A DNA stretch of 64,000 nt from Saccharothrix sp. ALI-22-I (GTDB taxonomy: Bacteria > Actinomycetota > Actinomycetes > Mycobacteriales > Pseudonocardiaceae), in NCBI RefSeq assembly GCF_001984175.1, contig NZ_MTQP01000040.1:1-64000 (forward strand), given 5' to 3'. The stretch's first letter is position 1, and each line of letters begins with the position of its first letter. The position numbers were made by a program, and so were the translations under genes. Positions 5,597 to 28,435 of this stretch are shown here, piece after piece. The notes beneath the pieces are model-generated. The model was not told the origin of the DNA. It did no database searches and saw only the letters and a list, made by a program, of their open reading frames with translations.

Positions 5597-6379
5597 TTAC
5601 ACGGCGTCGAGCGCGTCGGTGAACGCCTTGGTGCCGCCGTGTGCCGAGAATCCCCCGTCGACGGTGATCTCGGCGCCGTTGACGTACGCCGACTCATCGG
5701 AGAGGAGGTACACCACCAGCGGTGCCACCTCCTCGGGGATCCCGGCCCGGTTCATGGGCGTCATCGACAGATGCGCCTTCACGAACACGGGGTTGGCGTT
5801 GGCCATGATCGGTGTGTCGATGTATCCGGGGTGGATGATGTTCGTACGGATCCCCCGGGGAGCCAGCTCCAGCGCCGCGACCTTCGACAGTCCGCGCAGT
5901 GCCCACTTGCTGGCGGTGTAGGCGACCGCGTGGTGGGCGACGAGGCCGGCGACCGAACCGACGTTGACGATCGAGCCTCCTTCGCGCATCAGTGGGGCCA
6001 TGGCCTGCATGCCCAGCAGGGCGCCGGTGGTGTTGACCGCGAAGGCCCTGTTCCAGTCGGCGACGTCGACCTCGCCGAGCCGCGCGCGTACCGGCACGCC
6101 GGCGTTGTTGACCAGGCCGTGCAGGGGACGGCCGAGTGCCTCCAGCCAGTCGGCGAGAGCGGCCCAGTCGTCGGGTGAGGAGACGTCGAGGTGCCGGTAG
6201 CTGACGTCCAGGCCCTGGGCGGTCAGGGAGGCGGCGAGGGCCTCGCCGTCCTCGCCGAGGACGTCGGTGGCGAAGACGGTGGCGCCCTCGCGGGCCGCGG
6301 CCTCTGCCTCGGCGGCACCCTGGCCGCGGGCGGCACCGGTGACGACAACGCTTCGGCCTTCCAGACGCCTTCGACTCAC
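5597..6379 (-). CDS. Short-chain dehydrogenase/reductase (module 1, SDR-a)
   Basis: A 260-residue classical SDR that oxidises or reduces an alcohol/ketone with NAD(P). The cofactor motif TGAARGQG is near residue 14, the structural NNAG motif near residue 90, and the active-site YTASK at about residue 158 with an upstream serine in NVGSVAG. The GTG start at 6379 has a strong AGGAGG six bases upstream. It is closely related to the SDR at 27716-28435 of module 2; both share the HPGYI(D/E)TP and GGxxAHGG tail. The GATG-N5-CATC site at 6484 is about 105 bases upstream of the start, inside the 3' end of the LysR gene. Confidence 0.9.
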   Translation of the reverse strand: MSRRRLEGRSVVVTGAARGQGAAEAEAAAREGATVFATDVLGEDGEALAASLTAQGLDVSYRHLDVSSPDDWAALADWLEALGRPLHGLVNNAGVPVRARLGEVDVADWNRAFAVNTTGALLGMQAMAPLMREGGSIVNVGSVAGLVAHHAVAYTASKWALRGLSKVAALELAPRGIRTNIIHPGYIDTPIMANANPVFVKAHLSMTPMNRAGIPEEVAPLVVYLLSDESAYVNGAEITVDGGFSAHGGTKAFTDALDAV

Positions 6380-6445
6380 GGCTTCCTCCTGTTTCCCGCC
6401 TGTGTCCCGTCCGGGCACTCGGCCGTACCCGGCACGGGACTCACG

Positions 6446-7477
6446 CTAGGAAGCGGGGACGAGATGCGGAAACGGTTGTTGCCGATGGCTGGCATCCGGA
6501 GCCGCCATGGCTTGAACGGCGGCAGCGCCGGTCGCCGATGCCCCGGCGGCGGGAGCCGGCATGCCGGGTTCGGCCAGTTCCGCGCCGACACGACGGACCA
6601 CGCCGCGCAGCCATGTGTGCCCAGGGTCCGTATGGCGCTTGTGATGCCAGTACATTGCCTCGACCAGCGGCAGTTCGTTGGGGAACGGCGCCGGTGCGAC
6701 GGCGCAGCGCGCGAAGTCGGCGTACCGGCGGGCCAGCCGCTCCGGCACCAGCGCCACCAGGTCCGTGCCGCCCACCACGAACGGCAGGACACTGAAGCCA
6801 GGTGTGCTGACCTGGATCTTCGGCGTGACTCCCAGCATCTCCAGCTGGCGGTCCGACGGCGTGAGGCTCTTGCCGAATCCGGCCGCCGCGTGCGGCATCT
6901 CGGCCAGGTCCCGAAGGCTCAGCCGTCCGTCCACCAGCCGTGGGTTGTCCGGGTCGACGATGCACACGAACCGGTCGCGCAGCACAGCCTCGTTGACCCC
7001 GGGCACCCCGTAACCGAGCGGAGCGATCAGCAGGTCGTGGCAAGCCAGATGCGTCTCGCTCTCCAGCTGTCCGGGCGTGATGGGGTGGAAGTCGATGCGC
7101 ACGCCCGGCGCTTCCTGCCCGATGACCCGCAGGAGCGGCTCCACCATCACCGTCATCACGTAGTCGGACATGACGGCGGAGAACCGTTGGTCGCTGGTGG
7201 CTGGAATGAACCGACGAGTCAGGGACAGGGCTTCCTCGGCCTTCTGCAGGGACGCCTGCACGACGGGCAGAAGGCGCTCCGCGAGCGGCGTCAGCTCGTA
7301 CTCCCGGCCCACCCGCACCAGCAGCTCGTCGTCGAAGTGTCGGCGCAGCCGCGCCAGCGAGCCGCTCATCGCGGACTGGCTCGTGTTCAGGCGTTCACCC
7401 GCCCGGGTGACGTTCTTCTGCTGCAACAGCGCTTCGAGCGCCACCAGCAGGTTGAGGTCGATCGTTCCGAGCCCCAT
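6446..7477 (-). CDS. LysR-type transcriptional regulator (module 1)
   Basis: This 343-residue regulator has an N-terminal winged helix-turn-helix (DLNLLVALEALLQQKNVTRAGERL, with SQSAMSGSLARLRRHFDDELLVR) and a type 2 periplasmic-binding effector domain of the NodD/aromatic-sensing class. It ends with an unusual alanine/proline-rich tail of about 35 residues that is not present in its module 2 paralogue; the tail DNA contains a candidate operator for the downstream SDR. The effector is presumably the aromatic substrate or an intermediate of the module. It is transcribed towards the SDR, with the FAH gene upstream in the same orientation. Confidence 0.9.
   Translation of the reverse strand: MGLGTIDLNLLVALEALLQQKNVTRAGERLNTSQSAMSGSLARLRRHFDDELLVRVGREYELTPLAERLLPVVQASLQKAEEALSLTRRFIPATSDQRFSAVMSDYVMTVMVEPLLRVIGQEAPGVRIDFHPITPGQLESETHLACHDLLIAPLGYGVPGVNEAVLRDRFVCIVDPDNPRLVDGRLSLRDLAEMPHAAAGFGKSLTPSDRQLEMLGVTPKIQVSTPGFSVLPFVVGGTDLVALVPERLARRYADFARCAVAPAPFPNELPLVEAMYWHHKRHTDPGHTWLRGVVRRVGAELAEPGMPAPAAGASATGAAAVQAMAAPDASHRQQPFPHLVPAS
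6484..6496. promoter_or_regulatory. Candidate LysR operator GATGGCTGGCATC (site 1)
   Basis: A 13-bp interrupted inverted repeat, GATG-N5-CATC, identical to the site at 11378-11390. It lies about 105 bases upstream of the SDR start at 6379 and inside the 3' end of the LysR gene. Confidence 0.5.
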
Positions 7478-7701: not shown

Positions 7702-8658
7702 TCAGGGCCGCGGGGTACGCCCGCGCCTGCGGGCCCGGGGCAGGTAGACGTCCTGGCGGCCCGGCACGATCCGGTTGGACACGCTGCCGAGCCGTTCCAC
7801 GGTCAGCGTCACCACGTCACCCGGGGTGAGCGGGGGCGGGGTCCGCTCGCCGTTGCGGCCCCAGTGCTCTGCCAGGGCGCCCCAGCCACAGGTGCCCGAG
7901 CCCAGCAGGTCTCCCGGGCGTACCCAGGTGTCGCGGCTGGCGTAGGCGATCATCTCCTCGAAGGTCCACGAGCAGTTGGCGAGGGTGTCACGGCCGATGA
8001 GGTCGCCGTTGACGGTGACGGTCATCTCCAGGTCGAGGAACCCGTCGGGGTCCCTGCGGTCCTCCACCTCGTCCGCGGTCACCAGGAACGGGCCGAGGGT
8101 GTTGGCGAAGTCCTTGCCCTTGGAGAAACCCAGCCCAAGGTTCTTCTCCGGTTTCTGCAGGTCACGGGCGGACCAGTCGTTGAACACCAGGTAGCCGACG
8201 ATGTGGTCCCCGGCCTGCTCGGGCGTGAGGTCCCGCCCGGGCCGGCCGATCACGGCGGCCACCTCCAGTTCGCAGTCGAGCACCGAGCACCCGGCCGGGA
8301 CCGGCACCTCGTCGTGGGCGCCGTAGGCGGCGTGCGGGTTGGTGAAGTAGAAGTTCGGCGCCCGATACCACTCCTCTGGGATGTGCTCCAGACCGTCCAG
8401 GGCCTTCGAGACGCCCTCGATGTGCGCCTCGAAGCCCACGAAGTCACGGATCGACGGCGGCTTCAGCGGAGGCAGCAACCGGACGTCCTCGACCCGCGGA
8501 CCGCCGTCCCCGGCCAGGGCCCGCTCGCCTGCCTCCCGCAACGTCCCGTTCTCCAGGAGCGACAGCACCGTGGTGCCGTCCGGCAGCGGGTGGATCACCC
8601 CATCCCGGACGACACCCGCGCGCTCGGCGCCTTCGTGCTCGTATGTCGCGAAACGCAT
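7702..8658 (-). CDS. Fumarylacetoacetate-hydrolase-family protein, FAH-B (module 1)
   Basis: This 318-residue enzyme belongs to the FAH superfamily, which hydrolyses or decarboxylates beta-diketo and hydroxymuconate-type ring-cleavage products with a divalent metal. The N-terminal MRFATYEHEGAERAGVVRDG domain leads into the catalytic core: PNFYFTNPHAAYGAHDEVPVP, then the metal-binding E-x-E motif in CELEVAAVIG, the NDWSARDLQ block and FSKGKDFANTLGP. It is colinear along its length with the protein at 26787-27719. It lies 18 bases downstream of the amidohydrolase and is probably cotranscribed with the monooxygenase operon. Confidence 0.88.
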   Translation of the reverse strand: MRFATYEHEGAERAGVVRDGVIHPLPDGTTVLSLLENGTLREAGERALAGDGGPRVEDVRLLPPLKPPSIRDFVGFEAHIEGVSKALDGLEHIPEEWYRAPNFYFTNPHAAYGAHDEVPVPAGCSVLDCELEVAAVIGRPGRDLTPEQAGDHIVGYLVFNDWSARDLQKPEKNLGLGFSKGKDFANTLGPFLVTADEVEDRRDPDGFLDLEMTVTVNGDLIGRDTLANCSWTFEEMIAYASRDTWVRPGDLLGSGTCGWGALAEHWGRNGERTPPPLTPGDVVTLTVERLGSVSNRIVPGRQDVYLPRARRRGRTPRP

Positions 8659-8676
8659 CGTGTGTCTCTCCCGTGC

Positions 8677-9699
8677 TCAGTGGTGGGTGGGGGTGGGTGC
8701 CCGCCGGACCGTCCCCAGCAGGTCCATGGCGTTGCCGCCGGCGATCGCGGCCCGGGCCCCCGGGTCCAGCCCCGCGGCGTCCAGGCGCGCCACCGGGTCC
8801 TCGACGCCCATGTCGAAGGGATGGTCGGTGCCGAGAACGACACGGTCCGCCCCGGCCTCCTCGACCAGGTGGCGCAGTCCCCGGGGCGTGTAGACCAAGG
8901 CGTCGAACCACATGCGCCGCAGGTAGGTGCTCGGCGGGTGGGCGCAGCCCCGCGCGTCCTGGCGTACCTGCCATGCGTGGTCGGACCGTCCGATGTACGT
9001 GGGCAGGTAGCCGCCGCCGTGCGCGGCGACCAGCTTCAGCCCCGGGAAGCGGTCGAGTGTGCCGCCGAAGATCAGCCGCGACAGCGCGACGGTGGTCTCC
9101 ACGGGCTGGCCGACGGTGTTGCCGAGGTAGTGGACGGCGAGCCGTTCCCCGAGGGAGCAGCCCCAGGGGTGGACGAACACCACCGCACCCAGCGCCTCGG
9201 CCTTGGCCCACACCGGGTCGTGGGCAGGGTCGGCCAGCTCGCGGCCGTCGACGGAGGTGGAGACGCTGATCCCGTACAGCCCAAGTCCGGTGACCGCCTC
9301 CTGAAGCAGCTCCACCGCGAGGTGCGGGTGCTGCAGCGGCACGGTGCCCAGGCCGCACAGCCGCTCCGGAGCCTGCGCGCAGTGCGCGGCGACCGCCTCA
9401 TTGGTCGTACGGGCCAGGCGCTGCGCGAGGTCCTCGTCGGCCCAGTAGTGGTGCATGGGCATCGGCCCGACCACCTGGATGTCGACGCCCATCGCGTCGA
9501 GGTCTGCCAGCCTTGCCCGTACGTCGGTCAGCTTGGGCCGCAGCCGGGACAACTGGGCGCGGTTGGCCGCCAGCGACTCGGGCGCGTGCGCCCGCTGCTC
9601 GGCTGCGAACTCGGCCGCGAGTCCCTCCGTACCGGCGCACAGCTCGTCCGCCGCGGGGACGGCCAAGTGGCCGTGGAAGTCCACGACAGGCGTGATCAT
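8677..9699 (-). CDS. Amidohydrolase-family enzyme (ACMSD/decarboxylase-like, module 1)
   Basis: This 340-residue metal-dependent enzyme resembles the amidohydrolase subgroup that contains aminocarboxymuconate-semialdehyde decarboxylase and aromatic-acid decarboxylases. It shows the N-terminal H-x-H (VDFHGHLA), a core histidine in FVHPWGCSLGE, a histidine in AAHGGGYLPTYIGRSDHAW and the catalytic aspartate in VVLGTDHPFDMG. The ATG at 9699 overlaps the stop of the FAD monooxygenase (ATGA), which sets the start and shows coupling. Decarboxylation or hydrolysis of a ring-cleavage product is the likely job; the exact substrate is open. Confidence 0.87.
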   Translation of the reverse strand: MITPVVDFHGHLAVPAADELCAGTEGLAAEFAAEQRAHAPESLAANRAQLSRLRPKLTDVRARLADLDAMGVDIQVVGPMPMHHYWADEDLAQRLARTTNEAVAAHCAQAPERLCGLGTVPLQHPHLAVELLQEAVTGLGLYGISVSTSVDGRELADPAHDPVWAKAEALGAVVFVHPWGCSLGERLAVHYLGNTVGQPVETTVALSRLIFGGTLDRFPGLKLVAAHGGGYLPTYIGRSDHAWQVRQDARGCAHPPSTYLRRMWFDALVYTPRGLRHLVEEAGADRVVLGTDHPFDMGVEDPVARLDAAGLDPGARAAIAGGNAMDLLGTVRRAPTPTHH

Positions 9700-10867: not shown

Positions 10868-11173
10868 TCAGCCGGTGAAGCGGTCCCCGAGTTCGTGGTA
10901 GTGCTCGACGACCGGGGCCTTGTCGAAGTACGGGCCTACCAGGGAACGCCAGCGCTGGAACCGCTCGGAGCTGCGGAAACCGACGGTGTGCGCCTCGACG
11001 CTGTCCCAGCTGACGAGCAGCAGGTAGGTCTGCGGCCGCTCCTCGCAGCGCAGCAACTCGGCCCAGCGGAAGCCGTCGGCCTCGGCCAGAACCTTGCGTC
11101 CCTCGGCGAAGGCCGCCTCGAACTGCTGCTCCTGGCCGGCCGATACGGCCAGTTCCGCGTGCTCGACGATCAC
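10868..11173 (-). CDS. Small antibiotic-biosynthesis-monooxygenase-like (ABM) protein
   Basis: A 101-residue dimeric alpha/beta-barrel type protein: VIVEHAELAVSAGQEQQFEAAF at the start, LLRCEERPQTYLLLVSWDSVEAHTVGFRSSERFQRW in the middle and a PVVEHYHEL end. Such proteins act as cofactor-free monooxygenases or as accessory/cyclase-like proteins. The GTG at 11173 was chosen because AGGAGA sits five to six bases upstream; the longer frame upstream has no protein-like sequence. It is the first gene of the minus-strand catabolic operon and lies 47 bases before the FAD monooxygenase. Confidence 0.75.
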   Translation of the reverse strand: MIVEHAELAVSAGQEQQFEAAFAEGRKVLAEADGFRWAELLRCEERPQTYLLLVSWDSVEAHTVGFRSSERFQRWRSLVGPYFDKAPVVEHYHELGDRFTG

Positions 11174-11390: not shown

Positions 11391-11503
11391 GCCGATGACC
11401 ATTTCCGCCGGGCACTCGCTGATGCCTAGCGTTCCCAGTGGATGCCCTGTCCGCATCCCGTTTCCTGTCACTTCCCCTGTCACCCATGGACGAGGAGTCG
11501 CTC

Positions 11504-12481
11504 GTGCCTGATCGTCTACCCCTACACGCCGGGCCGTTCGCGCTCGGCACCTTCAGCCGCGATGGCGGCGATCCGTTCCCGGGACTGGTCACCGCCACCC
11601 GGGTGCGCGATCTGTCGCACGTGGCGGCGTCGGTGCGTGCGCTGGTCGAGGACTGGGACGGGGTGCTGCCGCGGCTGGCCGCTCTCGCCGAGGAACCGCA
11701 GACACCGGACGGCGCCTGGCACGACTTGGCCGACCTGCGCGTGCACGCCCCGATCGAGCCCGGCCAGATCCTCCAGTCGGGTGCCAACTACCGGCGTCAC
11801 GTGGTGGATCTGGTCGCGGCCGAGAAGGAGAGCGTGCACGGGGCCACCCCGGACGAGGCGCGGGCCGACGCCGAGAAGATGATGGACGAACGCGCCCGCA
11901 ACGGCGTGCCGTACATCTTCCTCGGCTCGCCGCGCGCGATGTGCGGCCCCTACGACGAGGTGGTGCTGCCGGAGCTCGGCGAGCAGCACGACTGGGAGCT
12001 GGAGCTCGCGCTTGTCATCGGCCGTGAAGGGCGGAACATCGCCCCGAAGGACGCGTGGTCGTATGTCGCCGGATACACGATCTGCAACGACATCACGACC
12101 CGTGACCGGCTCTACCGCCCGGATCTGAAGGCCATCGGCACCGACTGGTTCACCGCCAAGAACGCCGACACCTTCCTGCCGACCGGGCCGTTCCTGGTGC
12201 CGGCCAGCTTCGTCGGCGACTCGTCCGACTTCCGGATCACCCTGCGCCACAACGGAGTCGTACGCCAGGACGAGTCGACGAAGGACATGATCTTCGACAT
12301 CCCCCGGCTCATCGCCTACGCCTCGACCACCAGCACCCTGCGCCCGGGAGACCTGCTGCTCACCGGCTCGCCGGCCGGCAATGGCGCCCACTGGAACGTG
12401 TTCCTGGCGCCCGGCGACGTCATGGAGGCCGAAATCACCGGCCTCGGGCACCAGCGCAACACCGTCAGGAGCATCCGATGA
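11504..12481 (+). CDS. Fumarylacetoacetate-hydrolase-family protein, FAH-A (module 1)
   Basis: A 325-residue FAH-superfamily enzyme of a different subgroup from FAH-B. The core runs QILQSGANYRRHVVDL, then the metal E-x-E in DWELELALVIG, GYTICNDITTRD, GTDWFTAKNADTFLPTGPF and the C-terminal LLTGSPAGNG. It likely hydrolyses, isomerises or decarboxylates the ring-fission product. The GTG at 11504 has GAGGAG six bases before it and leaves a protein starting like the paralogue at 20822; an ATG 18 bases earlier lies before that ribosome site. Its stop overlaps the next start (ATGA). Confidence 0.88.
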   Translation: MPDRLPLHAGPFALGTFSRDGGDPFPGLVTATRVRDLSHVAASVRALVEDWDGVLPRLAALAEEPQTPDGAWHDLADLRVHAPIEPGQILQSGANYRRHVVDLVAAEKESVHGATPDEARADAEKMMDERARNGVPYIFLGSPRAMCGPYDEVVLPELGEQHDWELELALVIGREGRNIAPKDAWSYVAGYTICNDITTRDRLYRPDLKAIGTDWFTAKNADTFLPTGPFLVPASFVGDSSDFRITLRHNGVVRQDESTKDMIFDIPRLIAYASTTSTLRPGDLLLTGSPAGNGAHWNVFLAPGDVMEAEITGLGHQRNTVRSIR

Positions 12482-13431
12482 CCTCGACTTCTTCCGACGC
12501 CTTCCAGCCCATCACACATCTGCGTCACTTCGACCTGGCCGTGCCCGACTTCGACCAGCAGCGCACCTTTTACTCCGAGGTGTGGGGACTGACCGAGATC
12601 GCCAACGACAGCGGCATCGCGTTCTTCGCGGCCGAGGGCAGCCCCGAGCAGTACGTCGTCCGCATCCGCAAGGACCAGCGCAAGCGCATGGATCTGGTCG
12701 CCTTCGGCGCCGCCTCGGTATCCGATGTCGACGAGCTGGCCGCACGGCTGGGCACCGCGGACGTCCCGCTGGTCAGCGAACCGGGCGCCATGGACACTCC
12801 GGGAGGCGGCTACGGCTTTCGGTTCTTCGACCCCGACGGGAGGGTCGTCGAGGTCTCCGCGGACGTGGAGAACAGGGTCCACCGCAAGATCGAGGAGAGG
12901 GAGGCGGTCCCGGTCCGGCTCTCGCACTGCGTGGTGAACTCCACCGATCCGGCGGGACTTCGGGACTTCTACGCGCGGCACCTGGGCTTCCGGCTCTCCG
13001 ACACCCTGTTCTCGCAGCACATGGGTGACCTCATGTACTTCATGCGGTGCAACCCGCTGCACCACTCCTTCGCCATCGCGCGCGGCCCCCATGTCTCCCT
13101 GCACCACGCGTCGTTCGAGATGCGCGGAGTGGAGGAGTACATGCGCGGCACCGGACGGGCGCTGCGCGCCGGGACACGGCTGACCTGGGGGCCCGGCCGC
13201 CACCTGGCGGGCGACAACACCTTCGCCTACTTCCACGACCCGCACGGCAACACCGTCGAGTACACCACGGAACTCGCCGTCCTGGAGGAGGACCTGTGGC
13301 ACCCCGGACGGCACGACGTGGACGATCCGCAGACGCAGGACCAGTGGGGCACCGCCGACCCGATGAGCGAGTCGGTGGCCAAGGAACAGTTCAACGACCC
13401 CGACGTGCTGTTCGAGGCCCCGCCCGTGTGA
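12478..13431 (+). CDS. Type I extradiol dioxygenase, VOC superfamily (module 1)
   Basis: This 317-residue protein has two vicinal-oxygen-chelate domains, the architecture of catechol 2,3-dioxygenase/BphC-type enzymes that open catecholic rings next to the hydroxyls. Metal ligands are visible at the expected places: H150 (RLSHCVVN), H209 or H210 (LHHASFEM) and E261 (GNTVEYTTEL), almost the same numbering as in BphC. Domain 1 has lost these residues, as usual. It is coupled to FAH-A by an ATGA overlap, consistent with cleavage followed by processing. The C-terminal DQWGTADPM region is shared with the module 2 paralogue. Confidence 0.92.
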   Translation: MTSTSSDAFQPITHLRHFDLAVPDFDQQRTFYSEVWGLTEIANDSGIAFFAAEGSPEQYVVRIRKDQRKRMDLVAFGAASVSDVDELAARLGTADVPLVSEPGAMDTPGGGYGFRFFDPDGRVVEVSADVENRVHRKIEEREAVPVRLSHCVVNSTDPAGLRDFYARHLGFRLSDTLFSQHMGDLMYFMRCNPLHHSFAIARGPHVSLHHASFEMRGVEEYMRGTGRALRAGTRLTWGPGRHLAGDNTFAYFHDPHGNTVEYTTELAVLEEDLWHPGRHDVDDPQTQDQWGTADPMSESVAKEQFNDPDVLFEAPPV

Positions 13432-13501
13432 CCGGGATGTGATCAGCACCCGCCGCCCCCTCTGGCGAAACACCCCCGAAGCATCCGAGAAAGGCGCCAC
13501 C

Positions 13502-14809
13502 GTGGCGAAGACATTTCTGAAGACCGCCGTTTCCGAGGAACAGGTCACCGTCGATCTGAACGCCGTGCGCGCCACGGTCACCGACGTCATCGCGGACATC
13601 CGCGAACGCGGCGACACGGCAGTGCGCGAGTACTCCGAGAAGTTCGACGGATGGAGCCCGGAGTCCTTCCGGCTGTCACCGGAGCAGATCGAGGAGATCG
13701 TCTCCTCGGTGCCCGCCCAGGTCATCGAGGACATCCGCTTCGTGCAGGAGCAGGTGCGCACGTTCGCCCGCCACCAACTCGACTCCCTGGGCGAGTTCGA
13801 GGTGGAGACCCTGCCCGGCGTGAAGCTCGGTCAGAAGCACATCCCCGTCCAGGCCGCGGGCGCCTACATCCCCGGGGGCCGCTACCCGCTGACCGCCTCC
13901 GCCCACATGACCATCGTCACGGCTAAGGTCGCGGGCGTGCCCCGGGTCGTCGCCTGCACCCCGCCGATCCGCGGCGAGGTCCCCGCCGCGACCGTCGCCG
14001 CCGCGCACCTGGCGGGCGCCGACGAGATCTGGCTGCTCGGCGGTGTCCAGGCCGTCGCCGCGATGGCCGCCGGTACCGACACCATGCGACCGGTGGACCT
14101 GATCGCCGGGCCGGGCAACGCGTACGTCGCCGAGGCCAAGCGGCAGTTGTTCGGCGAGATCGGCATCGACCTGTTCGCCGGCCCCACCGAGATCCTGGTG
14201 CTGGCCGACGCTGATGCCGACCCGTTCATCTGCGCCGTCGACCTGCTCTCCCAGGCCGAGCACGGCCCCGACTCCCCCGCCGTGCTGATCACCACCTCCC
14301 GCGAGGTGGGCGAGCGGACCATCGCCGAGGTGGAGCGGCTGCTGCCCGGCATGCCGACAAAGGACTTCGCGGAGCCGGCGTGGCGGGACCACGGCCAGGT
14401 GATCGTGGTGGACTCCGTGGACGAGCTGTACACGCTGGCCGACGAGTTCGCGTACGAGCACGTGGAGGTGCTCACCGCCGACCCGCGCGAGGCACTGGAG
14501 CGAATGACCCAGTACGGTGCGCTGTTCCTCGGCGAGGGCACCTGCGTGTCCTTCGGCGACAAGGTCATCGGCACCAACCATGTGCTGCCCACGCGCGGCG
14601 CCGCCCGCTACACCGGCGGTCTGTGGGTCGGCAAGTACCTCAAGACGGTGACCTACCAGGAGGTCACGGACACCGAGTCGCAGGCCCTGCTGGGCCGGCT
14701 GTGCGGCCGGGCCGCCCGGATCGAGCTGTTCGAGGGACACGCCCGGTCCGGCGACGTACGGGCCGCCAAGGCCGCGGGAGACGAACTGCCCTGGGCGGTG
14801 CGGGCATGA
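13502..14809 (+). CDS. Histidinol-dehydrogenase-like NAD-dependent alcohol dehydrogenase
   Basis: This 435-residue protein belongs to the HisD fold family. It keeps the zinc-site elements (Q and H in LLSQAEHGPDS, D and H in SFGDKVIGTNHVLPT, late H in FEGHARS) and the catalytic E-H pair in FAYEHVEV. No other histidine-biosynthesis gene is nearby, and it sits between a ring-cleavage dioxygenase and an SDR, so it is more likely one of the catabolic HisD paralogues (such as the sulfopropanediol dehydrogenase HpsN type) that oxidise a primary alcohol to a carboxylate. The GTG at 13502 has GAGAAAGG about seven bases upstream. Substrate unknown. Confidence 0.85.
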   Translation: MAKTFLKTAVSEEQVTVDLNAVRATVTDVIADIRERGDTAVREYSEKFDGWSPESFRLSPEQIEEIVSSVPAQVIEDIRFVQEQVRTFARHQLDSLGEFEVETLPGVKLGQKHIPVQAAGAYIPGGRYPLTASAHMTIVTAKVAGVPRVVACTPPIRGEVPAATVAAAHLAGADEIWLLGGVQAVAAMAAGTDTMRPVDLIAGPGNAYVAEAKRQLFGEIGIDLFAGPTEILVLADADADPFICAVDLLSQAEHGPDSPAVLITTSREVGERTIAEVERLLPGMPTKDFAEPAWRDHGQVIVVDSVDELYTLADEFAYEHVEVLTADPREALERMTQYGALFLGEGTCVSFGDKVIGTNHVLPTRGAARYTGGLWVGKYLKTVTYQEVTDTESQALLGRLCGRAARIELFEGHARSGDVRAAKAAGDELPWAVRA

Positions 14810-15777: not shown

Positions 15778-15879
15778 TCACGACGCGCGCATTGCCCCAC
15801 CACCATTCGAGCCCCCTTCCCGAGCTGGCGGGCACCCCTCCGTCGTGCGGGCCTCAGGTGAGGGCCTATCAGGAATTAG

Positions 15880-19800: not shown

Positions 19801-20736
19801 CTATTCCTCCGGCTTGTCGGCCCGGCGCGTCTCGATCCTGCGGCCTGCTTCGGCGAACACCGATCTCAGCCAGTTGTGTTCCGGGTCGCGGTCGTGCACC
19901 GGGTGCCACCACAGCGCCTCGGTGAGGCGCATGGCGTCGAACGGGCACGGCAGGGCGCGCACCTCGCCGCCGAACGTGAGCCGCGGCGCCAGTTCGGCCT
20001 GCACCAGCGCGATCCGGTCAGTGCCCACGATCAGCCACGGCAGGGCGAGGAAGCTCTCCGCCACGAGCTGCACGCGCGGTTCGACGCCGAGCACCTGGAG
20101 CTGGCGCGAGGCGGGTGTGAACGCCGAGGGCGCGTGGTAGGTCAGCACCCACGGCAGCTCGGCGAGGTTGGCCATGGTGAGGGAGTCGCCGACGGCGGTG
20201 TTGGACCGGGCGACGAGGATCATCCAGTCGTCCGTCCAGAGGTCGAGGTGCGGCATGTCGGAGACGAACCCGTGCGGCAGCACCAGTCCGTCGACCATCC
20301 GCAGGGTCTCCTCGGCGGCGTCGATCATCGGCGTGGTGTACCGGTCGAACCGCAGCCGCACGCGCGGCGCGGTCTCGTCCAGGATGCGGCCGACGTGCTC
20401 GCCGACCACGGCCATCGGGTAGTCCGACACCAGCACCGAGAAGGTGCGCTGCGACGTGCTCGGGTCGAACACGGGCTCGCTGGCGAACACTCGCTCGACG
20501 CCCGCGAGCGCGGTCCCGGTACGTTCGCGGAGCTGCACGGCCAGCGGTGTCAGCTCGTAGCTGTTGCCGACGCGGGTGAGCAGCTCGTCGCCGAAGTGGC
20601 GACGCAGCCTGGCCAGCGACGCGCTGAGCGCGGGCTGGCCGAGTCCGAGCCGGGCGGCGGCACGGGTGACGCTGCGCTCGCGCAGCAGGTGGTCGAGCGG
20701 GACCAGCAGGTTCAGGTCCAGCGTGGCCAGGTTCAT
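19801..20736 (-). CDS. LysR-type transcriptional regulator (module 2)
   Basis: A 311-residue regulator, paralogous to the one at 6446-7477: N-terminal helix-turn-helix TLDLNLLVPLDHLLRERSVTRA with QPALSASLARLRRHFGDELLTR, then a ligand-binding domain (VLVSDYPMAVVGEHVGRIL, WVLTYHAPSAFTPASRQLQVLG). It lacks the long Ala/Pro tail of its paralogue. The ATG at 20736 has GAGGAG six bases upstream. It is divergent from the FAH-A gene across 85 bases that hold a 15-base palindrome, the classic layout for LysR autoregulation and activation. Confidence 0.9.
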   Translation of the reverse strand: MNLATLDLNLLVPLDHLLRERSVTRAAARLGLGQPALSASLARLRRHFGDELLTRVGNSYELTPLAVQLRERTGTALAGVERVFASEPVFDPSTSQRTFSVLVSDYPMAVVGEHVGRILDETAPRVRLRFDRYTTPMIDAAEETLRMVDGLVLPHGFVSDMPHLDLWTDDWMILVARSNTAVGDSLTMANLAELPWVLTYHAPSAFTPASRQLQVLGVEPRVQLVAESFLALPWLIVGTDRIALVQAELAPRLTFGGEVRALPCPFDAMRLTEALWWHPVHDRDPEHNWLRSVFAEAGRRIETRRADKPEE

Positions 20737-20821: not shown

Positions 20822-21742
20822 ATGCCCAACGACGTGTTCGCCCTCGGTGTGTTGTCCGACGGGGACGCCCCGCCCTTCACCGCGCTCGTCGTGGACGACC
20901 GCGCGCGGGCGCTGCCCGAGAGCGTCTCCGACCTGCTGTCCGACTGGGACGCCGCGCTTCCCCGGCTGCGCGCGCTGGCCGCGGAGCCCGACGGTTGGCG
21001 GCCACTGGACGGCCTCGCGGTGCACGCCCCGGTCGCGCCGCGGCAGGTCCTCCAGGCGGGGGCCAACTACCGGACCCACGTGATCGACCTGGCCGTGAAG
21101 CACGCCTCGGGCGTTCCCGAGGAGCAGGTTCGGGCCGAGGTCGCGGCGATGATGGACCGCCGGATCGCGCAGGGCGAGCCGTACTTCTTCCTCGGGCTGC
21201 CCACGGTGATCGCCGGTCCGCACGATGACCTGGTGCTGCCCGCGTACTCCGAGCAGCACGACTGGGAGCTGGAGCTGGCCGCGGTGATCGGCAGGCCCGC
21301 GTTCCGGGTGGACCGCGAGCATGCGCTGGAGCACGTGGCCGGCTACACGATCGTCAACGACGTGACCACGCGGGACCTGGTGTTCCGCCGGGACATGCCG
21401 GAGATCGGCACGGACTGGTTCCGCGCGAAGAACGCTCCCGGCTTCCTGCCGACCGGGCCGTGGCTGGTACCTGCGGAGTTCGTGCCGGAGAACCCGACGA
21501 TCACCCTGCGGCTCAACGGGGAAGCCATGCAGGACGAGTCCACAAAGGACATGATCTTCGACGTCGCCGCGCTGGTCGCCGCTGCCTCGCGGACCGTGCC
21601 GCTGCTGCCCGGCGACCTCGTGCTCACCGGCAGCCCGGCGGGCAACGGCCTGCACCACGGGCGGCTGCTGCGCGCGGGCGACGTCATGGAGGGCACCATC
21701 ACCGCGCTGGGCACCCAGCGGGTCCGGTGCGTGGCACCGTGA
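20822..21742 (+). CDS. Fumarylacetoacetate-hydrolase-family protein, FAH-A (module 2)
   Basis: A 306-residue FAH-superfamily enzyme, paralogue of 11504-12481. Shared core: QVLQAGANYRTHVIDL, metal motif DWELELAAVIG, GYTIVNDVTTRD, GTDWFRAKNAPGFLPTGPW and VLTGSPAGNGLHH. The ATG at 20822 follows AGGGTGGG; the frame upstream is only a shadow of the LysR gene. First gene of the module 2 operon, overlapping the next start by GTGA. Confidence 0.88.
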   Translation: MPNDVFALGVLSDGDAPPFTALVVDDRARALPESVSDLLSDWDAALPRLRALAAEPDGWRPLDGLAVHAPVAPRQVLQAGANYRTHVIDLAVKHASGVPEEQVRAEVAAMMDRRIAQGEPYFFLGLPTVIAGPHDDLVLPAYSEQHDWELELAAVIGRPAFRVDREHALEHVAGYTIVNDVTTRDLVFRRDMPEIGTDWFRAKNAPGFLPTGPWLVPAEFVPENPTITLRLNGEAMQDESTKDMIFDVAALVAAASRTVPLLPGDLVLTGSPAGNGLHHGRLLRAGDVMEGTITALGTQRVRCVAP

Positions 21743-22728: not shown

Positions 22729-23853
22729 ATGCCCGCTGTCAGCAGCGTGCTCGTCATCGGTGGCGGCGCCGCCGGAACGGCCACCGCCATCCTGCTCGCC
22801 GAGCGGGGGGTGGCCGTCGACCTGGTCGAGATCAAGACCGACGCGACGACCACCGGTTCCGGGATCACCTTGCAGGGCAACGCTTTGCGCGTGCTACGGC
22901 AGCTCGGTGTATGGGAGGCGGTGCTAGCCGCCGGGTACCCGTTCAACTCGGTCGGCATGCGCACGCCCGATGGCACCCTGCTCTTCGAGATCCCCGACAT
23001 CCGCACCGGCGGACCCGACCTGCCCGCGACCCTCGGGATGCCCAGGCCCGACCTGGCCCGCGTGCTGCTGGACCGGGCGACCTCCCTCGGCGTGAAGGTC
23101 CGCTTCGGCACCACGTGCACGGACCTGGACCAGGACGACACCGGCGTGCGGGTCACGTTCTCCGACGGCTCGCACGGGCGCTACGACCTGGCGGTCGGGG
23201 CCGACGGCGTGCGCTCGTGGACGCGGCAGGCGCTCGGCGTCCAACTGGAGACCCGGCCGACGGGCATGGGCATCTGGAGGGTGTTCACCCGCAGACCCGC
23301 GTCGATCACCCGGACCGACATGGTCCACGGCGGGCCGTGTCACATCGCGGGCTACTGCCCCACCGGCGAGGACAGCCTCTACGCCTACCTCGTGGAGGAC
23401 GCGACCGACCGCAGCGCGCTCACGCCCGATGCGCGGCTCGCCATCGTGCGCGGCCTCGCCGCCGGCTACCACGGGCCGTGGGACGAGATCCGCGAGCACC
23501 TCACCGATCCGAGCGCGGTCAACTACACCCGGTTCGAGACCCATTTCCTGGACGGCCCGTGGCACCGCGGGCGGGTCGTGCTGATCGGCGACGCCGTGCA
23601 CGTGTGCCCGCCCACCCTCGCCCAGGGCGCCGCGCAGGCGCTGGAGGACGCGGCCGTGCTGGCCGAGCTGCTGCTCGCCGCGGACCGGCTCGACGAGGCG
23701 CTGTGGACGGACTTCACCGCTCGCCGCGCCGCCCGCGCCCGTGCCGTGGTCGACGCCTCGGTGCAGATCGGGCAGTGGCTGCTGGACCGCGAGCGCGGCG
23801 ACGTGCCCGGCCTCATACGCGACATCTCGACGCTCGTCAGGGACCCCGCGTGA
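22729..23853 (+). CDS. FAD-dependent aromatic monooxygenase (module 2)
   Basis: A 374-residue flavoprotein hydroxylase, exactly the length of its module 1 paralogue. FAD motif VLVIGGGAAGTATAILLAERG, mid-motif DLAVGADGVRSWTRQ and GDAVHVCPPTLAQGAAQALEDA. The ATG at 22729 has GAAGGAGG five bases upstream; the GTG three bases earlier is too close to it. The two enzymes share the DLVEI...GxGITLQGNAL stretch, so they may act on related substrates. Coupled to the amidohydrolase by GTGA. Confidence 0.9.
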   Translation: MPAVSSVLVIGGGAAGTATAILLAERGVAVDLVEIKTDATTTGSGITLQGNALRVLRQLGVWEAVLAAGYPFNSVGMRTPDGTLLFEIPDIRTGGPDLPATLGMPRPDLARVLLDRATSLGVKVRFGTTCTDLDQDDTGVRVTFSDGSHGRYDLAVGADGVRSWTRQALGVQLETRPTGMGIWRVFTRRPASITRTDMVHGGPCHIAGYCPTGEDSLYAYLVEDATDRSALTPDARLAIVRGLAAGYHGPWDEIREHLTDPSAVNYTRFETHFLDGPWHRGRVVLIGDAVHVCPPTLAQGAAQALEDAAVLAELLLAADRLDEALWTDFTARRAARARAVVDASVQIGQWLLDRERGDVPGLIRDISTLVRDPA

Positions 23854-24878
23854 CCGCCGTCGACGTGCACGCCCACGCGATCCTGCCCGAGGTGGAGGCG
23901 CTGGTGGGCGGCTCTTCGGGCCGTGAGGCGCAGCGCGCGCTCGACCTGCGGCGCAACGGCGCGGAGTCAGAGGCGGTGTCCGGGCGCATGGTCCGCGAGG
24001 CGTGGCCGCTGCTCACGGACCTGGAGGCGCGGCTGGCTGCGATGGACGCGGCCGGGATCGATGTGCAGGTGGTGTCGCCGTCCCCGTCGCAGTACCACTA
24101 CTGGGCCGACCCGGCGACGGCCGGGGAGATCGCCGCGCTGGCGAACCGGGGCATCTCCGCGCTCGTGGCGCGGGCGCCCGAGCGGCTGTCCGGGCTCGGC
24201 CTGGTCGCGTTGCAGCACCCGGACCTCGCCGTGCACCAGCTGGAGGACGCCATCGGGCTCGGGCTCGTGGGCGTCGAGATCTCCTCGCACGCCCCCACCG
24301 CGACCGGGACCGTCGAGCTGTCCGACCCGCGCCTCGACCCGTTCTGGGCCCGCGCCGAGCAGCTGGGGGCCGTGGTGTTCCTGCACCCGTTCGGCTGCAC
24401 GCTCGACGAGCGGCTGGACCGGTTCTACCTGGCCAACACCGTCGGGCAGCCGGTCGAGAACGCGGTGGCGCTGTCGCACCTGATCTTCGGCGGGGTGCTG
24501 GACCGGTTTCCGGACCTGCGACTCGTCGCCGCGCACGGCGGCGGCTACCTGCCCACGTTCCTCAGCCGCTCCGACCACGCGTGGGAGGTGCGGCCCGAGG
24601 CGCGGGGCTGCTCGGGGCGGCCGAGCACCTACCTGACCCGCCTGCACTTCGACTCGCTCGTGCACTCCCCCGAAGCCCTGCGCGCACTGGTCCGGGCGGC
24701 CGGGGCGGACCGGGTGCTGCTCGGCTCAGACTTCCCGTTCGACATGGGAGTGCCCGATCCGGTAGCGAGGCTCGCCGCGGCCGGTCTGCCGCCCGCAGAG
24801 GAACGAGCGGTGCTCAACGGGAACGCCATCCGGCTGGGACTGGTCCCAGCCACCCTGACAGTCGAGGAGTACGCATGA
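23850..24878 (+). CDS. Amidohydrolase-family enzyme (module 2)
   Basis: A 342-residue paralogue of 8677-9699, with VDVHAHAI (H-x-H), FLHPFGCTLDERLDRFYLANTVGQP, AAHGGGYLPTFLSRSDHAW and the catalytic aspartate in LLGSDFPFDMG. As in module 1 it directly follows the FAD monooxygenase, with overlapping stop/start, so their order is conserved. Likely decarboxylase or hydrolase on a ring-fission intermediate. The GTG start at 23850 is fixed by the GTGA overlap. Confidence 0.87.
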   Translation: MTAVDVHAHAILPEVEALVGGSSGREAQRALDLRRNGAESEAVSGRMVREAWPLLTDLEARLAAMDAAGIDVQVVSPSPSQYHYWADPATAGEIAALANRGISALVARAPERLSGLGLVALQHPDLAVHQLEDAIGLGLVGVEISSHAPTATGTVELSDPRLDPFWARAEQLGAVVFLHPFGCTLDERLDRFYLANTVGQPVENAVALSHLIFGGVLDRFPDLRLVAAHGGGYLPTFLSRSDHAWEVRPEARGCSGRPSTYLTRLHFDSLVHSPEALRALVRAAGADRVLLGSDFPFDMGVPDPVARLAAAGLPPAEERAVLNGNAIRLGLVPATLTVEEYA

Positions 24879-25813
24879 CCGACCGGCTCATCACCCACCT
24901 GCGGCACGTCGACCTCGCCGTGCCGGACCTCCGGACGCAGCAGGGCTTCTACACCGGGCTGTGGGGCCTCACCGAGGTCGCCACCGACTCTGGCCTGTCG
25001 TTCCTGGCCGCTGAGGGCTCGCCGGAGCAGTACGTGGTCCGGCTGCGCCAGGCCGCCGACAAGCGGATCGACCTGATCGCGTTCGGCGCGGCGACGCCGG
25101 CCGACGTGGACACCCTGGCGCTGCGCCTCGGCCAGGACGGCGTCCAGCTCGTGTCCGAACCCGGCGTGCTGCTCACGCCCGGCGGCGGCTACGGCTTCCG
25201 GTTCTTCGACAACGAGGGCCGCACGGTCGAGGTGTCGGCCGACGTCGCGCTGCGCGCGCACCGCAAGGTCGAGGAGCGCGAGTCGGTGCCGGTGAGGCTG
25301 TCCCACGTCGTGATCAACTCGGCTGACCCCGAGGGCACCGTGGCGTTCTACGAACGGCACCTGGGTTTCGCGCTGTCCGACACCCTCATGCACCCGCGGA
25401 TGGGCAACATGATGTGGTTCATGCGCTGCAACGCCTGGCACCACAGCTTCGCCGTCGCCCGCGGCCCGCACCCCTCACTGCACCACGCGAGCTTCGAGCT
25501 GCGCGGACTCGACGAGTACATGCGCGGCACCGGACGGCTGCTGCGCTCCGGCGTGGAGAAGATCTGGGGTCCCGGCAGGCACAAGGCGGGCAACAACACG
25601 TTCTCCTACTTCCTGGACCCGCAGGGCAACACCGTCGAGTACACGACCGAGCTGGAAACACTCGACGAGGACACCTGGCACCCCGGCCTGCACGACTTCA
25701 GCGACCCGGAGGTCAGCGACCAGTGGGGCACGGCGAACGCGATGGACGAGTTCGTCGCCGCGAAGTCGTTCAACGACCCGGACAAGGGCCTGTTCGTGGC
25801 GCCGCCGGTATGA
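24875..25813 (+). CDS. Type I extradiol dioxygenase, VOC superfamily (module 2)
   Basis: A 312-residue two-domain extradiol dioxygenase. Predicted iron ligands are H144 (RLSHVVIN), H203/H204 (LHHASFEL) and E255 (GNTVEYTTEL). By eye about two thirds of positions match the module 1 enzyme, including WGLTE, AEGSPEQYVVR, TPGGGYGFRFFD and EYMRGTGR. ATGA overlaps at both ends couple it to the amidohydrolase and the SnoaL-like gene. Confidence 0.92.
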   Translation: MTDRLITHLRHVDLAVPDLRTQQGFYTGLWGLTEVATDSGLSFLAAEGSPEQYVVRLRQAADKRIDLIAFGAATPADVDTLALRLGQDGVQLVSEPGVLLTPGGGYGFRFFDNEGRTVEVSADVALRAHRKVEERESVPVRLSHVVINSADPEGTVAFYERHLGFALSDTLMHPRMGNMMWFMRCNAWHHSFAVARGPHPSLHHASFELRGLDEYMRGTGRLLRSGVEKIWGPGRHKAGNNTFSYFLDPQGNTVEYTTELETLDEDTWHPGLHDFSDPEVSDQWGTANAMDEFVAAKSFNDPDKGLFVAPPV

Positions 25814-26166
25814 GTTCCGAGCAGCTCCGGTGGCTCGTCGACCGCGCCCTGATCGGCGACCTGCTCATCGAGTTCGCCCGCAGGCTCGACCTGCGCGGCT
25901 GGGACGGCTACTCGGAGCTGTACACAGTGGATGGTGAGCTGGAGCTGCTCGGTCCGACGATCGCGCGCGGTCGGGCCGAGATCAGCGAGTTCGCCGCCAG
26001 GAGCCTGGGGCGGTACGAGGCCACGTGGCACCTGAGCGCCGCGCACACCATCGACATCGACGGCGACACCGCGCGCACCCGCTCGTCGCTGTTCGCGGTG
26101 CACGTGCTCGGCGACCACGGCCGCAGCCACGCCGACGGCGCGGGCTGGTACGACAACACATCGTGA
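25810..26166 (+). pseudogene. SnoaL-like protein, C-terminally truncated by IS110 debris
   Basis: The 118-codon frame encodes the start of a SnoaL/NTF2-like small-molecule-binding fold (LVDRALIGDLLIEFARRLD, YTVDGELELLGPTIARGRAEI, RYEATWHLSAAHTIDIDGDTARTRS). It reaches DGAGWYDN and stops two codons later; the usual final beta strands (about 30 residues) are missing. The DNA after 26155 belongs to an IS110-type fragment on the other strand, so the gene lost its end by insertion and deletion. The start overlaps the dioxygenase stop. The product may be non-functional. Confidence 0.7.
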
Positions 26167-26786: not shown

Positions 26787-27719
26787 ATGCGCTTCGCGAC
26801 CGTCGAGGAGGACGGCGGCACCCGCTGCGGTGTCGTCGAAGGCGACCGCCTGCACCGGCTGCCGCCCGGCACCACGGTGCTGGACCTGTTGCGCGCCAAC
26901 GGCCTGCTCGACGCGGGCGCTGCGGCACTCGCGGCGGGCGACACCGTGCCGTTGGCCGGACTGCGCCTGCTGCCGCCGGTGCAGGCGCCGACCGTGCGGG
27001 ACTTCGTGACGTTCGAGGAGCACGTCGAGGGCATCGCGGGCGAGGTCGTCCCCGAGTGGTACCAGGCCCCGACGTTCTACTTCACCAATCCGCACTCCCT
27101 GGTCGGCGCGCACGACGACGTCGCCGTGCCGCCGGGGTGCGCGCTGCTCGACTTCGAACTGGAGGTCGCGGCGGTGATCGGCGCCGCGGGCTCGGACCTG
27201 ACACCCGAGCAGGCCCGGTCGCACATCGCGGGCTACACGATCTTGAACGACTGGTCCGCGCGCGACCTGCAACGCCGGGAGATGAAGGTGCTGCTCGGCC
27301 CGGCAAAGGGCAAGGACTTCGCGTCCACCCTGGGCCCCGTGCTGGTCACCGCAGACGAACTGGAGCCGCACCGCGACGCCGACGGCTTCCTGGCGCTGTC
27401 GATGGCGGTGGCCGTCAACGGCGTCGAGGTCGGCCGCGACCTGCTGTCCAACATGGGCTGGTCGTTCGAGGAACTCGTCTCCTACGCCTCGCGCGGCACG
27501 TCCGTGCGTCCCGGCGACGTGCTGGGCTCCGGGACGTGCGGGAACGGCGGCTGCCTCGCCGAGCTGTGGGGCCGGGGAGCCGCCCAGAACCCGCTGGTGC
27601 CCGGTGACGTCGTGACGATGACCGTGGAGGGCATCGGCACGATCGAGAACCGTGTGGTAGCGGGGCACGACGCCGCCCCCGTCACGCCCGCCAGGGTCCG
27701 CACGCGGGCGCGATCGTGA
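26787..27719 (+). CDS. Fumarylacetoacetate-hydrolase-family protein, FAH-B (module 2)
   Basis: A 310-residue paralogue of 7702-8658. Shared features: MRFATVEEDGG start, PTVRDFVTFEEHVEG, PTFYFTNPHSLVGAHDDV, metal motif DFELEVAAVIG, NDWSARDLQ and GPAKGKDFASTLGP. The ATG at 26787 follows TTAGGGA. It is coupled to the SDR by GTGA. The FAH-B/SDR pair is separated from the rest of module 2 by IS debris but matches the module 1 content. Confidence 0.88.
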   Translation: MRFATVEEDGGTRCGVVEGDRLHRLPPGTTVLDLLRANGLLDAGAAALAAGDTVPLAGLRLLPPVQAPTVRDFVTFEEHVEGIAGEVVPEWYQAPTFYFTNPHSLVGAHDDVAVPPGCALLDFELEVAAVIGAAGSDLTPEQARSHIAGYTILNDWSARDLQRREMKVLLGPAKGKDFASTLGPVLVTADELEPHRDADGFLALSMAVAVNGVEVGRDLLSNMGWSFEELVSYASRGTSVRPGDVLGSGTCGNGGCLAELWGRGAAQNPLVPGDVVTMTVEGIGTIENRVVAGHDAAPVTPARVRTRARS

Positions 27720-28435
27720 CCCTCGCGGGTCGCGTCGTCGTCGTCACGGGAGCGGGCCGCGGCCAGGGAGCGGCGCAGGCGCGGGCGCTCGCCGAAGCGG
27801 GCGCGATCGTGTGGGCGCTCGACGTCGAAGGCCCGTGCCACCACCTGGACGTGACCGACGCGGGCGCGTGGGCCGACCTGGCCGCGGAACTGGCGGCGAC
27901 GCACGGACACGTGCACGGCCTGGTCAACAACGCGGGCATCACCTGGCGGGCGCGCCTGGCCGACCTGGCGCCCGCGGACCTGCACCGCGTGCTCGACGTC
28001 AACCTGGTCGGTCCGCTGCTCGGCATCCAGCACCTCGCCCCGCTGATGGGCGCGGGCGCCTCGATCGTCAACGTCGGCTCGGTCGCCGCCCTCACCGGCC
28101 ACTACCCGCTGGCCTACACGACCAGCAAGTGGGCCCTGCGCGGCCTGACGAAGGCCGCGTGCCTGGAACTCGGCCCGCGCGGCATCCGGGTCAACGCCGT
28201 GCACCCCGGCTACATCGAGACGCCGATGACCGGGTCCGCGAGCCCCGCGTTCCGCGCCGCGAACATCGCCGAGACTCCCTTGGGCCGCATCGGAACGGTC
28301 GACGAGGTCGCGCCGCTGGTGGTGTTCCTGTTGGGCGACGGCGCGTCGTTCATCAGCGGCGCCGAGATCGCCGTGGACGGCGGGATGACCGCCCACGGCG
28401 GGGTCAAGTCCATCTCGGACGCGGTCGCCCGGTGA
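27716..28435 (+). CDS. Short-chain dehydrogenase/reductase (module 2)
   Basis: A 239-residue SDR with TGAGRGQGAAQ near the start, a compact Rossmann core in which the usual second strand is followed quickly by LDVEGPCHHLDVTD, NNAG at about residue 71, serine in NVGSVAA and YTTSKWALRG. It is closely related to SDR-a of module 1 (same SKWALRGL, HPGYI and AHGG ends). The GTG overlaps the FAH-B stop. Confidence 0.9.
   Translation: MTLAGRVVVVTGAGRGQGAAQARALAEAGAIVWALDVEGPCHHLDVTDAGAWADLAAELAATHGHVHGLVNNAGITWRARLADLAPADLHRVLDVNLVGPLLGIQHLAPLMGAGASIVNVGSVAALTGHYPLAYTTSKWALRGLTKAACLELGPRGIRVNAVHPGYIETPMTGSASPAFRAANIAETPLGRIGTVDEVAPLVVFLLGDGASFISGAEIAVDGGMTAHGGVKSISDAVAR

Follow-up and report, generated by a model that had tools for sequence, protein, structure and literature searches.

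The 64,000-nucleotide stretch studied here (the window; positions 1 to 64,000 of contig NZ_MTQP01000040.1, our C36, of Saccharothrix sp. ALI-22-I) carries two neighbouring gene modules for the putative breakdown of aromatic compounds, M1 (5.6-15.6 kb) and M2 (19.8-28.4 kb), and a third module of the same kind, M3, is present on another contig (C14) of the genome. The three are probably separately inherited or acquired lineages of one widespread ring-cleavage module, of which M1 and M2 have become neighbours in a block flanked by remnants of insertion sequences, and each would encode a meta-cleavage pathway for a substituted phenol. A further proposal, which we put forward tentatively, is that a core of FAD-dependent aromatic monooxygenase (FMO) and VOC-family extradiol dioxygenase, found in Actinomycetes and at least some sphingomonads, is finished by one of two mutually exclusive and non-homologous endings. 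One would be an alpha/beta hydrolase (ABH) as in flavonoid degraders such as those carrying the fde and ifc clusters, the other an ACMSD-like amidohydrolase (AmdH) together with a diketo-acid hydrolase (FAHA) of the fumarylacetoacetate-hydrolase (FAH) superfamily; the strain, which has lost its ABH module by deletion and carries three modules of the AmdH type, would have swapped endings. No description of the AmdH-FAHA variant was found in the literature searched, to judge from titles and the opening lines of abstracts.

Relationship of M1 and M2

An earlier note on this DNA had reported that six enzyme families and a LysR regulator occur twice in the window, and this is borne out: open reading frame listing, translation and Pfam/NCBIfam scans, by which the gene families were assigned, place all seven in both modules, and the M1 and M2 members are best BLASTP pairs among the 24 window proteins compared (40-69% identity, E 7e-62 or lower). 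The identities far exceed chance, with 69% for the VOC dioxygenases (E 6e-161), 58% for FAHB, the second FAH-family enzyme (2e-116), 57% for AmdH (9e-122), 55% for FAHA (1e-104), 54% for M1 SDRa and the M2 SDR (5e-82), 46% for FMO (1e-86) and 40% for LysR (7e-62). The order of monooxygenase and amidohydrolase is likewise kept, with an overlap of 4 bases in both modules (ATGA in M1, if AmdH starts at 9699, and GTGA in M2). Judged from these families and their similarities, M1 and M2 are homologous throughout.

The note had attributed this likeness to a duplication, and the shared families, the adjacency and the identical FMO-AmdH overlap would all suit a duplication, either within this lineage or in a recent ancestor, followed by quick divergence. 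The phylogenies, however, argue strongly against such an origin. Neighbourhoods were collected from genomes of the same family, plasmid records and named genomes, and quick LG+G4 trees of 20-45 rows each, hand-picked for spread, were built for VOC, AmdH, FMO, FAHA, FAHB, LysR and SDR. M1 and M2 are non-sisters in all seven, with modules of other genera separating them, and for the rows sampled the approximately unbiased (AU) test rejects their joint grouping in every family (VOC p = 4e-39, AmdH 4e-7, FMO 4e-5, FAHA 8e-50, FAHB 2e-5, LysR 9e-9 and SDR 1e-6). Locus L103 was removed from the final trees for its long branch (support for the M1-type group in the VOC tree is 92 with it and 98 without), and L175 and L197 were dropped as duplicates, their VOC being identical to those of L087 and L055. 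The nearest relatives of M1 are Streptomyces and Actinomadura modules, while those of M2 are modules of other genera in the same family and of further actinomycetes. Moreover, the M1 VOC shares 84-88% identity with its counterparts at 19 other loci (17 Streptomyces, one Streptomyces metagenome-assembled genome and one 'Actinobacteria bacterium OK074') and 81% with that of Actinomadura fibrosa, as against 69% with its M2 partner. A duplication is hence very improbable, and M1 and M2 are better interpreted as sister lineages of long standing within one module family, brought together here. Distant clades with unrelated neighbours were the pattern by which the note would have recognised separate acquisitions; the clades are indeed distinct, but the neighbours are related.

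The M1-type order SDRa-LysR-FAHB-CYC-AmdH-FMO-ABM / FAHA-VOC-HisD-SDRb, in which CYC is a cyclase-family hydrolase, is present with all eleven genes in 12 of 20 related loci (L118-L137), mostly from Streptomyces. The other eight are one to six genes short by the matching rule applied: L122 and L125 are interrupted by contig ends, L123 is five genes short and L132 four, L124 and L131 are without a full HisD match and L137 without a full FAHB match, and L136 has no CYC, a cupin inside and an SDR at the opposite end. A FAD_binding_4 oxidase gene is found between FAHB and CYC or AmdH in 14 of the 20 (by clustering, with Pfam on L118 and L136). Both CYC and this oxidase, found in most Streptomyces counterparts between FAHB and AmdH, are missing from M1 of the window, where 18 bases separate the two genes. 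SDRb at 60% identity or more occurs in 17 loci besides the window, every one of them M1-type. In the relatives of M2 the genes commonly run LysR / FAHA-CYC-FMO-AmdH-VOC-FAHB-SDR, in many cases accompanied by an MFS gene, and this type is widespread in Actinomycetes.

VOC genes of this kind occur three times in the genome, once each in M1, M2 and M3. M3 (L016; C14, 5705-15866) is of the AmdH type and is composed of LysR, FAHA, FMO, AmdH, VOC, a metallo-beta-lactamase-fold protein and FAHB. It has no cyclase gene; the metallo-beta-lactamase-fold protein sits between VOC and FAHB, likewise in L100, and members of its cluster are also found in L057, L059, L084 and L103. Downstream of M3 come an Amidohydro_1 protein and another FAD monooxygenase. 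Homologues of the VOC were recovered from at least 107 of 390 genomes of the same family (E 1e-60, a set that includes a second VOC group of about 40-48% identity) and from at least 28 of 394 genomes in a sample of the class (E 1e-100), the own genome included in both; the best five candidates per genome were scored, and absences are therefore soft. In one class member (L231; G604:C1:438000-457999) five VOC matches were recorded; two of these are separated by 9 kb and have FAH-family genes and a cupin-like match close by, and multiple copies thus occur elsewhere as well.

Two proposed alternative endings

Presence and absence of the later genes were scored in the 121 loci with FMO, VOC and FAHB, a set that contains M3 and leaves out M1 and M2 of the window; eight of 154 loci, including L115 and L111, were excluded from these counts because their VOC match was weak or missing. 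AmdH and FAHA occur together in 85 loci and are both missing from 35, with AmdH alone in one (L138) and FAHA alone in none. Neighbour clustering identified an ABH of about 380 amino acids in 29 of the 36 FAHA-less loci and in none of the 85 with FAHA. A direct search of the 121 loci found AmdH in 86, ABH in 30, both in none and neither in five, four of which are on short contig pieces of 12-15 kb. The best solved match of the ABH is 2,6-dihydroxypseudooxynicotine hydrolase (E 3e-23). The modules hence carry either AmdH, nearly always together with FAHA, or ABH.

Before further loci were retrieved we fixed the expectation that AmdH or ABH would occur, never both, and FAHA if and only if AmdH. 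Three duplicates and two loci without FMO or FAHB by the rule were subtracted from 31 class-wide loci, which leaves 26 new ones. AmdH is present in 17 of them and ABH in seven, both in none and neither in two, so that exactly one occurs in 24 of 26. In detail, 16 have AmdH with FAHA, one AmdH alone (L234), six ABH alone, one ABH with FAHA (L224) and two neither; FAHA and AmdH go together as expected in 24 of the 26.

The single ABH copy of the Saccharothrix genome is truncated. It lies on contig C67 (L207; 9403-12821), where it meets a truncated LysR gene in what is the scar of a deleted ABH-type module. The DNA around it is collinear with an intact ABH module in the genus mate G005 (L017), with nucleotide identities of 88-97%. 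On the two sides of the joint the identity is 93 and 97%, with 5278 bases gone and an overlap of 4 bases. The gap reaches from the 5' part of ABH to that of LysR, and FAHB, SDR, VOC, FMO and CYC are lost. Matches to the stumps begin at residue 39 of ABH and residue 83 of LysR; both are without their beginnings, and the difference is therefore a loss in our strain and not an insertion in G005. With no intact ABH in M1, M2 or M3, the genome holds three AmdH-type modules and no intact module of the ABH type.

Enzymes and proposed pathway

The counts of conserved residues given here include the copies in the window and two loci that are duplicates. Both FMOs exceed the cut-off of the PRK06847 model (372 bits; M1 397, M2 440), which identifies them as group A FAD monooxygenases of aromatic rings; they are 34-41% identical to the FMOs of L204-L206 and L115, and the Asp of the GD motif is kept in 132 of 133 sequences. 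The 2-His-1-Glu site of the VOC enzymes (His150, His210, Glu261) is invariant (148/148), as are His196 and Tyr251 (148/148). Their matches to the HpaD and catechol 2,3-dioxygenase models are below the cut-offs, and among solved structures an unnamed glyoxalase-family protein comes first, followed by catechol and homoprotocatechuate dioxygenases. The best match of AmdH in the PDB is ACMSD (E 8e-54 for M1 and 2e-49 for M2). Four His (HxH plus two) are present in 95 of 95 AmdHs and an Asp in 94 of 95, residues that we take to be the metal ligands. The acidic residues of the FAH enzymes are intact in all 98 FAHA and all 129 FAHB sequences, and the matches of both enzymes to diketo-acid hydrolases and HpaG-type hydrolases stay below the curated cut-offs; the conserved residues of VOC, FMO and FAH are presumably catalytic. 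The HisD-like protein of M1 is closer to sulfopropanediol 3-dehydrogenase (E 3e-120) than to histidinol dehydrogenase (8e-80), and is an HpsN-type relative by sequence.

From the gene content, phylogeny, co-occurrence, intact catalytic residues and deletion scar described above, we infer the reactions, their order, the transport and the substrate as follows. The LysR regulator would sense the substrate, which may be imported by an ABC carrier in M1 and an MFS carrier in M2. FMO would hydroxylate the position next to the phenolic hydroxyl group and VOC would open the catechol at the extradiol bond. AmdH, a putative metal enzyme, and FAHA would then process the ring-fission acid, AmdH most likely by decarboxylation and less likely by C-C hydrolysis, and FAHB, with the cyclase-type hydrolase where present, would cut the remainder into small oxo-acids. 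In the sister modules the ABH, probably a C-C hydrolase, would replace AmdH and FAHA, while HisD and SDRb of M1 would also oxidise an alcohol side chain. Phenols of plant or polyketide origin whose ring resembles that of resorcinol or of flavonoids are the likely substrates, with coumarins as possible candidates; the separate regulators, transporters and extra enzymes of M1 and M2 fit related but different substrates. Because M1-M3 share several gene kinds with the fde and ifc clusters, with AmdH and FAHA in place of ABH, we read them by analogy as phenol meta-cleavage modules that may work like fde and ifc with a different ending.

Two other placements of AmdH can be conceived. If AmdH acted first, it would decarboxylate an aromatic acid of the orsellinate or resorcylate type, after which FMO would hydroxylate the resorcinol, VOC would form a trioxo-acid, and FAHA and FAHB would release pyruvate and a 3-oxo-acid destined for coenzyme A (CoA). 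Resorcylate, 5-carboxyvanillate and salicylate decarboxylases are indeed among the PDB matches of AmdH, the FAH enzymes match diketo-acid hydrolases (below cut-offs, as noted), CoA transferase genes in the neighbourhood of the module in 12 of 144 loci (L116, L150, L163, L170 and others) hint at a 3-oxo-acid product, and an annotated acetoacetate-CoA ligase comes after VOC-FAH-cupin in C. occultum (L113). However, such CoA transferase clusters are missing within about 10 kb in the other 132 loci, and ACMSD is by far the closer match (M2 2e-49 and M1 8e-54, against 1e-22 and 1e-27 for the best arene decarboxylase). ACMSD acts on a ring-fission product. AmdH moreover alternates with an alpha/beta hydrolase akin to C-C hydrolases, and is therefore placed after ring opening; we regard the early decarboxylation as unlikely. 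AmdH could alternatively be a C-C hydrolase like LigY that performs the same reaction as ABH, in which case the two variants would share all intermediates. This would explain the mutual exclusion of AmdH and ABH, and a LigY-type hydrolase does appear among the PDB matches (E about 6e-14), but the ACMSD match is far stronger, and FAHA is gained and lost together with AmdH, which would be unnecessary if one enzyme simply replaced the other. LigY has Glu where ACMSD and the AmdHs found here have Asp. We judge a LigY-like role to be rather unlikely too, and retain AmdH and FAHA acting together on the ring-fission acid.

Several observations weigh against the preferred scheme. Exceptions exist on both sides of the rule: AmdH is without FAHA in L138 and L234; seven loci (L082, L143, L162, L164, L189, L236 and L237) are scored as neither, although for L237 an ABH match exists that the rule does not count; and the compound locus L224 combines ABH and FAHA and has a second, distant cluster with a 46% AmdH-like match outside the rule. 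Independent switches are few, as FAHA changes 8 times on the VOC tree, AmdH 8 and ABH 9 times. Among supported independent pairs, FAHA and AmdH agree in four of five with one showing no difference and none contrary (p = 0.125), and AmdH and ABH are opposite in 2.7 of 4 on average, with 1.3 showing no difference and none contrary (p = 0.25), too few pairs in either case to reach significance. The position that we take to be the substrate-binding Arg of ACMSD is an Arg in 38 of 95 AmdHs when read at the M2 position and in 3 of 95 at the M1 position, the alignment being loose there. The comparison with flavonoid clusters has weak points as well: the module VOCs are 29-36% identical over part of their length to those of the fde-like plasmid clusters of Diaphorobacter (L205) and Burkholderia (L206), and 42-43% to a sphingomonad VOC, and no Rieske partner beside FMO was found among the genes of M1 and M2. 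In the ifc cluster, furthermore, deletion of the ABH-like gene 59470 did not stop daidzein loss according to the available part of PMC11069340, and its role there is unproven.

Gene content of the block

On the minus strand, M1 comprises SDRa (5597-6418), the LysR regulator (6446-7477), FAHB (7702-8658), AmdH (Amidohydro_2; 8677-9699, with a longer reading frame to 9780), FMO (FAD_binding_3 and NCBIfam PRK06847; 9696-10826) and the small ABM-family protein (10868-11173), all assigned by Pfam. The plus strand carries FAHA (11438-12481), the VOC dioxygenase (Pfam Glyoxalase; 12478-13431), the HisD-like dehydrogenase, whose nearest solved relative is given above (13439-14809), and SDRb (14806-15585). 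A Cupin_2 protein precedes them (4944-5459, minus); it has a 66% homologue within the M1-type module of Actinomadura fibrosa and is 41-43% identical to the cupins of L204-L206. An ABC importer occupies 997-4777 on the minus strand, with a permease (BPD_transp_2; 997-2202), a two-domain ATPase (2073-4076) and a sugar-type binding protein (3614-4777). Homologues of this importer adjoin M1-like genes in Modestobacter altitudinis (L138; 47-57%), and ATPase and permease homologues at 57-58% lie beside M1-like genes in Nocardioides flavescens (L165); it is therefore probably the uptake system of M1. None was found in the 20 kb stretches surrounding the Streptomyces M1-type modules.

M2 begins with its LysR regulator on the minus strand (19801-20736), followed on the plus strand by FAHA (20822-21742), CYC (PF04199; 21739-22707), FMO (PRK06847; 22726-23853), AmdH with the ACMSD match and the kept metal-site residues (23850-24878), VOC (24875-25813), a SnoaL-like protein (SnoaL_4; 25810-26166), FAHB (26787-27719) and SDR (27716-28435), again by Pfam. 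The SnoaL-like protein has a 56% homologue at the equivalent position in L054. An MFS transporter (28752-30068, minus) follows, with homologues near 40 of 146 module loci. The extras by which the note had distinguished the modules are thus all in place, namely the HisD-like enzyme, ABM, cupin and ABC importer of M1 and the cyclase, SnoaL-like and MFS proteins of M2.

The M2 CYC is the only close copy in the genome, with one further match at 35%. We considered whether it might be shared by M1 and M3. CYC is present in 17 of the 20 M1-type loci, the exceptions being L122 and L125 at their contig ends and Actinomadura fibrosa, which has two copies elsewhere (83 and 76%). Among seven genomes of the family with a CYC-less module (G131, G175, G384, G248, G230, G222 and G286), however, only G175 and G248 have a close CYC elsewhere, so sharing is not general, and the idea was rejected.

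Between the modules lie padR (16466-17050, minus), vanA (17160-18293, plus) and vanB (18293-19294, plus), in agreement with the vanAB genes that the note had placed there. The trio is found at 75-90% protein identity in L111, where no module is present. This is the only one of 154 annotated loci with a VanA match of at least 60%, and neither VanA nor PadR is matched at 60% in the rest. Against the vanAB DNA, the best 40 of several hundred stretches per genome in five genus mates yielded nothing beyond short matches at about 66% and still smaller fragments. We ruled out vanAB as a component of either module, and padR-vanAB is an independent vanillate demethylase unit.

Remnants of mobile elements surround these genes. 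An ISL3-type transposase remnant, of which only the zinc ribbon is left (15778-16338, minus), has DNA 89-90% similar elsewhere in the genus, and an rve_3-type remnant (30302-30800, minus) forms the right bound of the block. Self-comparison of the window detects an inverted 87% copy of the latter at 3-366, the start of contig C36. These remnants suggest assembly of the block by mobile elements; no complete element is seen, and the left flank is beyond the contig end. Including one at 62980-63474, three copies of the rve_3-type remnant are present in the window, and many more in genus mates. Directly outside the block (31136-33127) are a TetR regulator and a further FAD monooxygenase. A reverse transcriptase gene (RVT_1; 32857-34341, minus), perhaps of a group II intron, is adjoined by repeats (34525-35280) that recur in genus mates.

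Comparison with known systems

The kynurenine route resembles the modules in that AmdH is ACMSD-like, and it also has a cyclase-family hydrolase and a FAD_binding_3 monooxygenase. Its ring is opened by the 3-hydroxyanthranilate cupin, whereas the modules would use a VOC enzyme; no kynureninase is among the module genes identified, and this pathway was set aside. A plasmid cluster of Novosphingobium sp. EMRT-2 (L115) is similar (VOC 44%, FMO 37-41%, FAHA 44-45%, AmdH 42%, and a metallo-beta-lactamase 32% identical to that of M3), with no alpha/beta hydrolase annotated in the stretch, but differs in its TonB receptor and TetR regulator. We rejected the 4-hydroxypyridine kpi cluster as a counterpart, since KpiC, listed as Amidohydro_1 in the available part of PMC7356986, is itself the dioxygenase. 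Coumarin breakdown in Rhodococcus involves FAH enzymes, flavin hydroxylases and extradiol dioxygenases, but not this module as far as the part of PMC10005059 consulted goes.

The closest counterparts are the flavonoid clusters, which the ABH variant resembles in its predicted genes. In the fde cluster of Herbaspirillum seropedicae SmR1, which acts on naringenin, a FAD monooxygenase and a dioxygenase open the flavonoid A-ring (PMC8552027, PMC11303751 and PMC11069340, in the parts available), and these two enzyme kinds are common to fde and M1-M3. FdeE is partnered there by the Rieske protein FdeD, unlike its counterparts in M1 and M2. The Diaphorobacter and Burkholderia clusters, which we call fde-like from gene content alone and not from comparison with the H. 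seropedicae sequences, contain LysR, ABH, VOC, Rieske, FMO, MFS, cyclase, cupin and FAH genes. They share LysR, MFS, the cyclase-family hydrolase, cupin and FAH with the window modules, but have ABH where M1-M3 have AmdH and FAHA.

For the isoflavone cluster ifc of Variovorax sp. V35, the available part of PMC11069340 reports that IfcA starts daidzein breakdown, that an ifcB mutant accumulates 8-hydroxydaidzein and that the cupins IfcD act later, with ifcA, B and D mutants and enzymes studied. A group A FMO, a glyoxalase-family dioxygenase and a cupin are the kinds shared with the window modules. The alpha/beta hydrolase of ifc, which stands in place of AmdH and FAHA, is likened there to 2,6-dihydroxypseudooxynicotine hydrolase, the protein that the ABH of the sister modules likewise matches best in the PDB. 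The note had known of no described pathway with exactly this gene set; this holds in that one step differs, but the set is close to the described fde and ifc clusters. Homologues of ifcA were found in Proteobacteria only (PMC11069340, same part), and the flavonoid-degradation clusters that we found described are likewise from Proteobacteria, whereas the module family is common in soil Actinomycetes. The alternation of AmdH and FAHA with ABH offers a testable prediction for the ifc step from X2 to X3, whose gene was not identified according to that part of PMC11069340.

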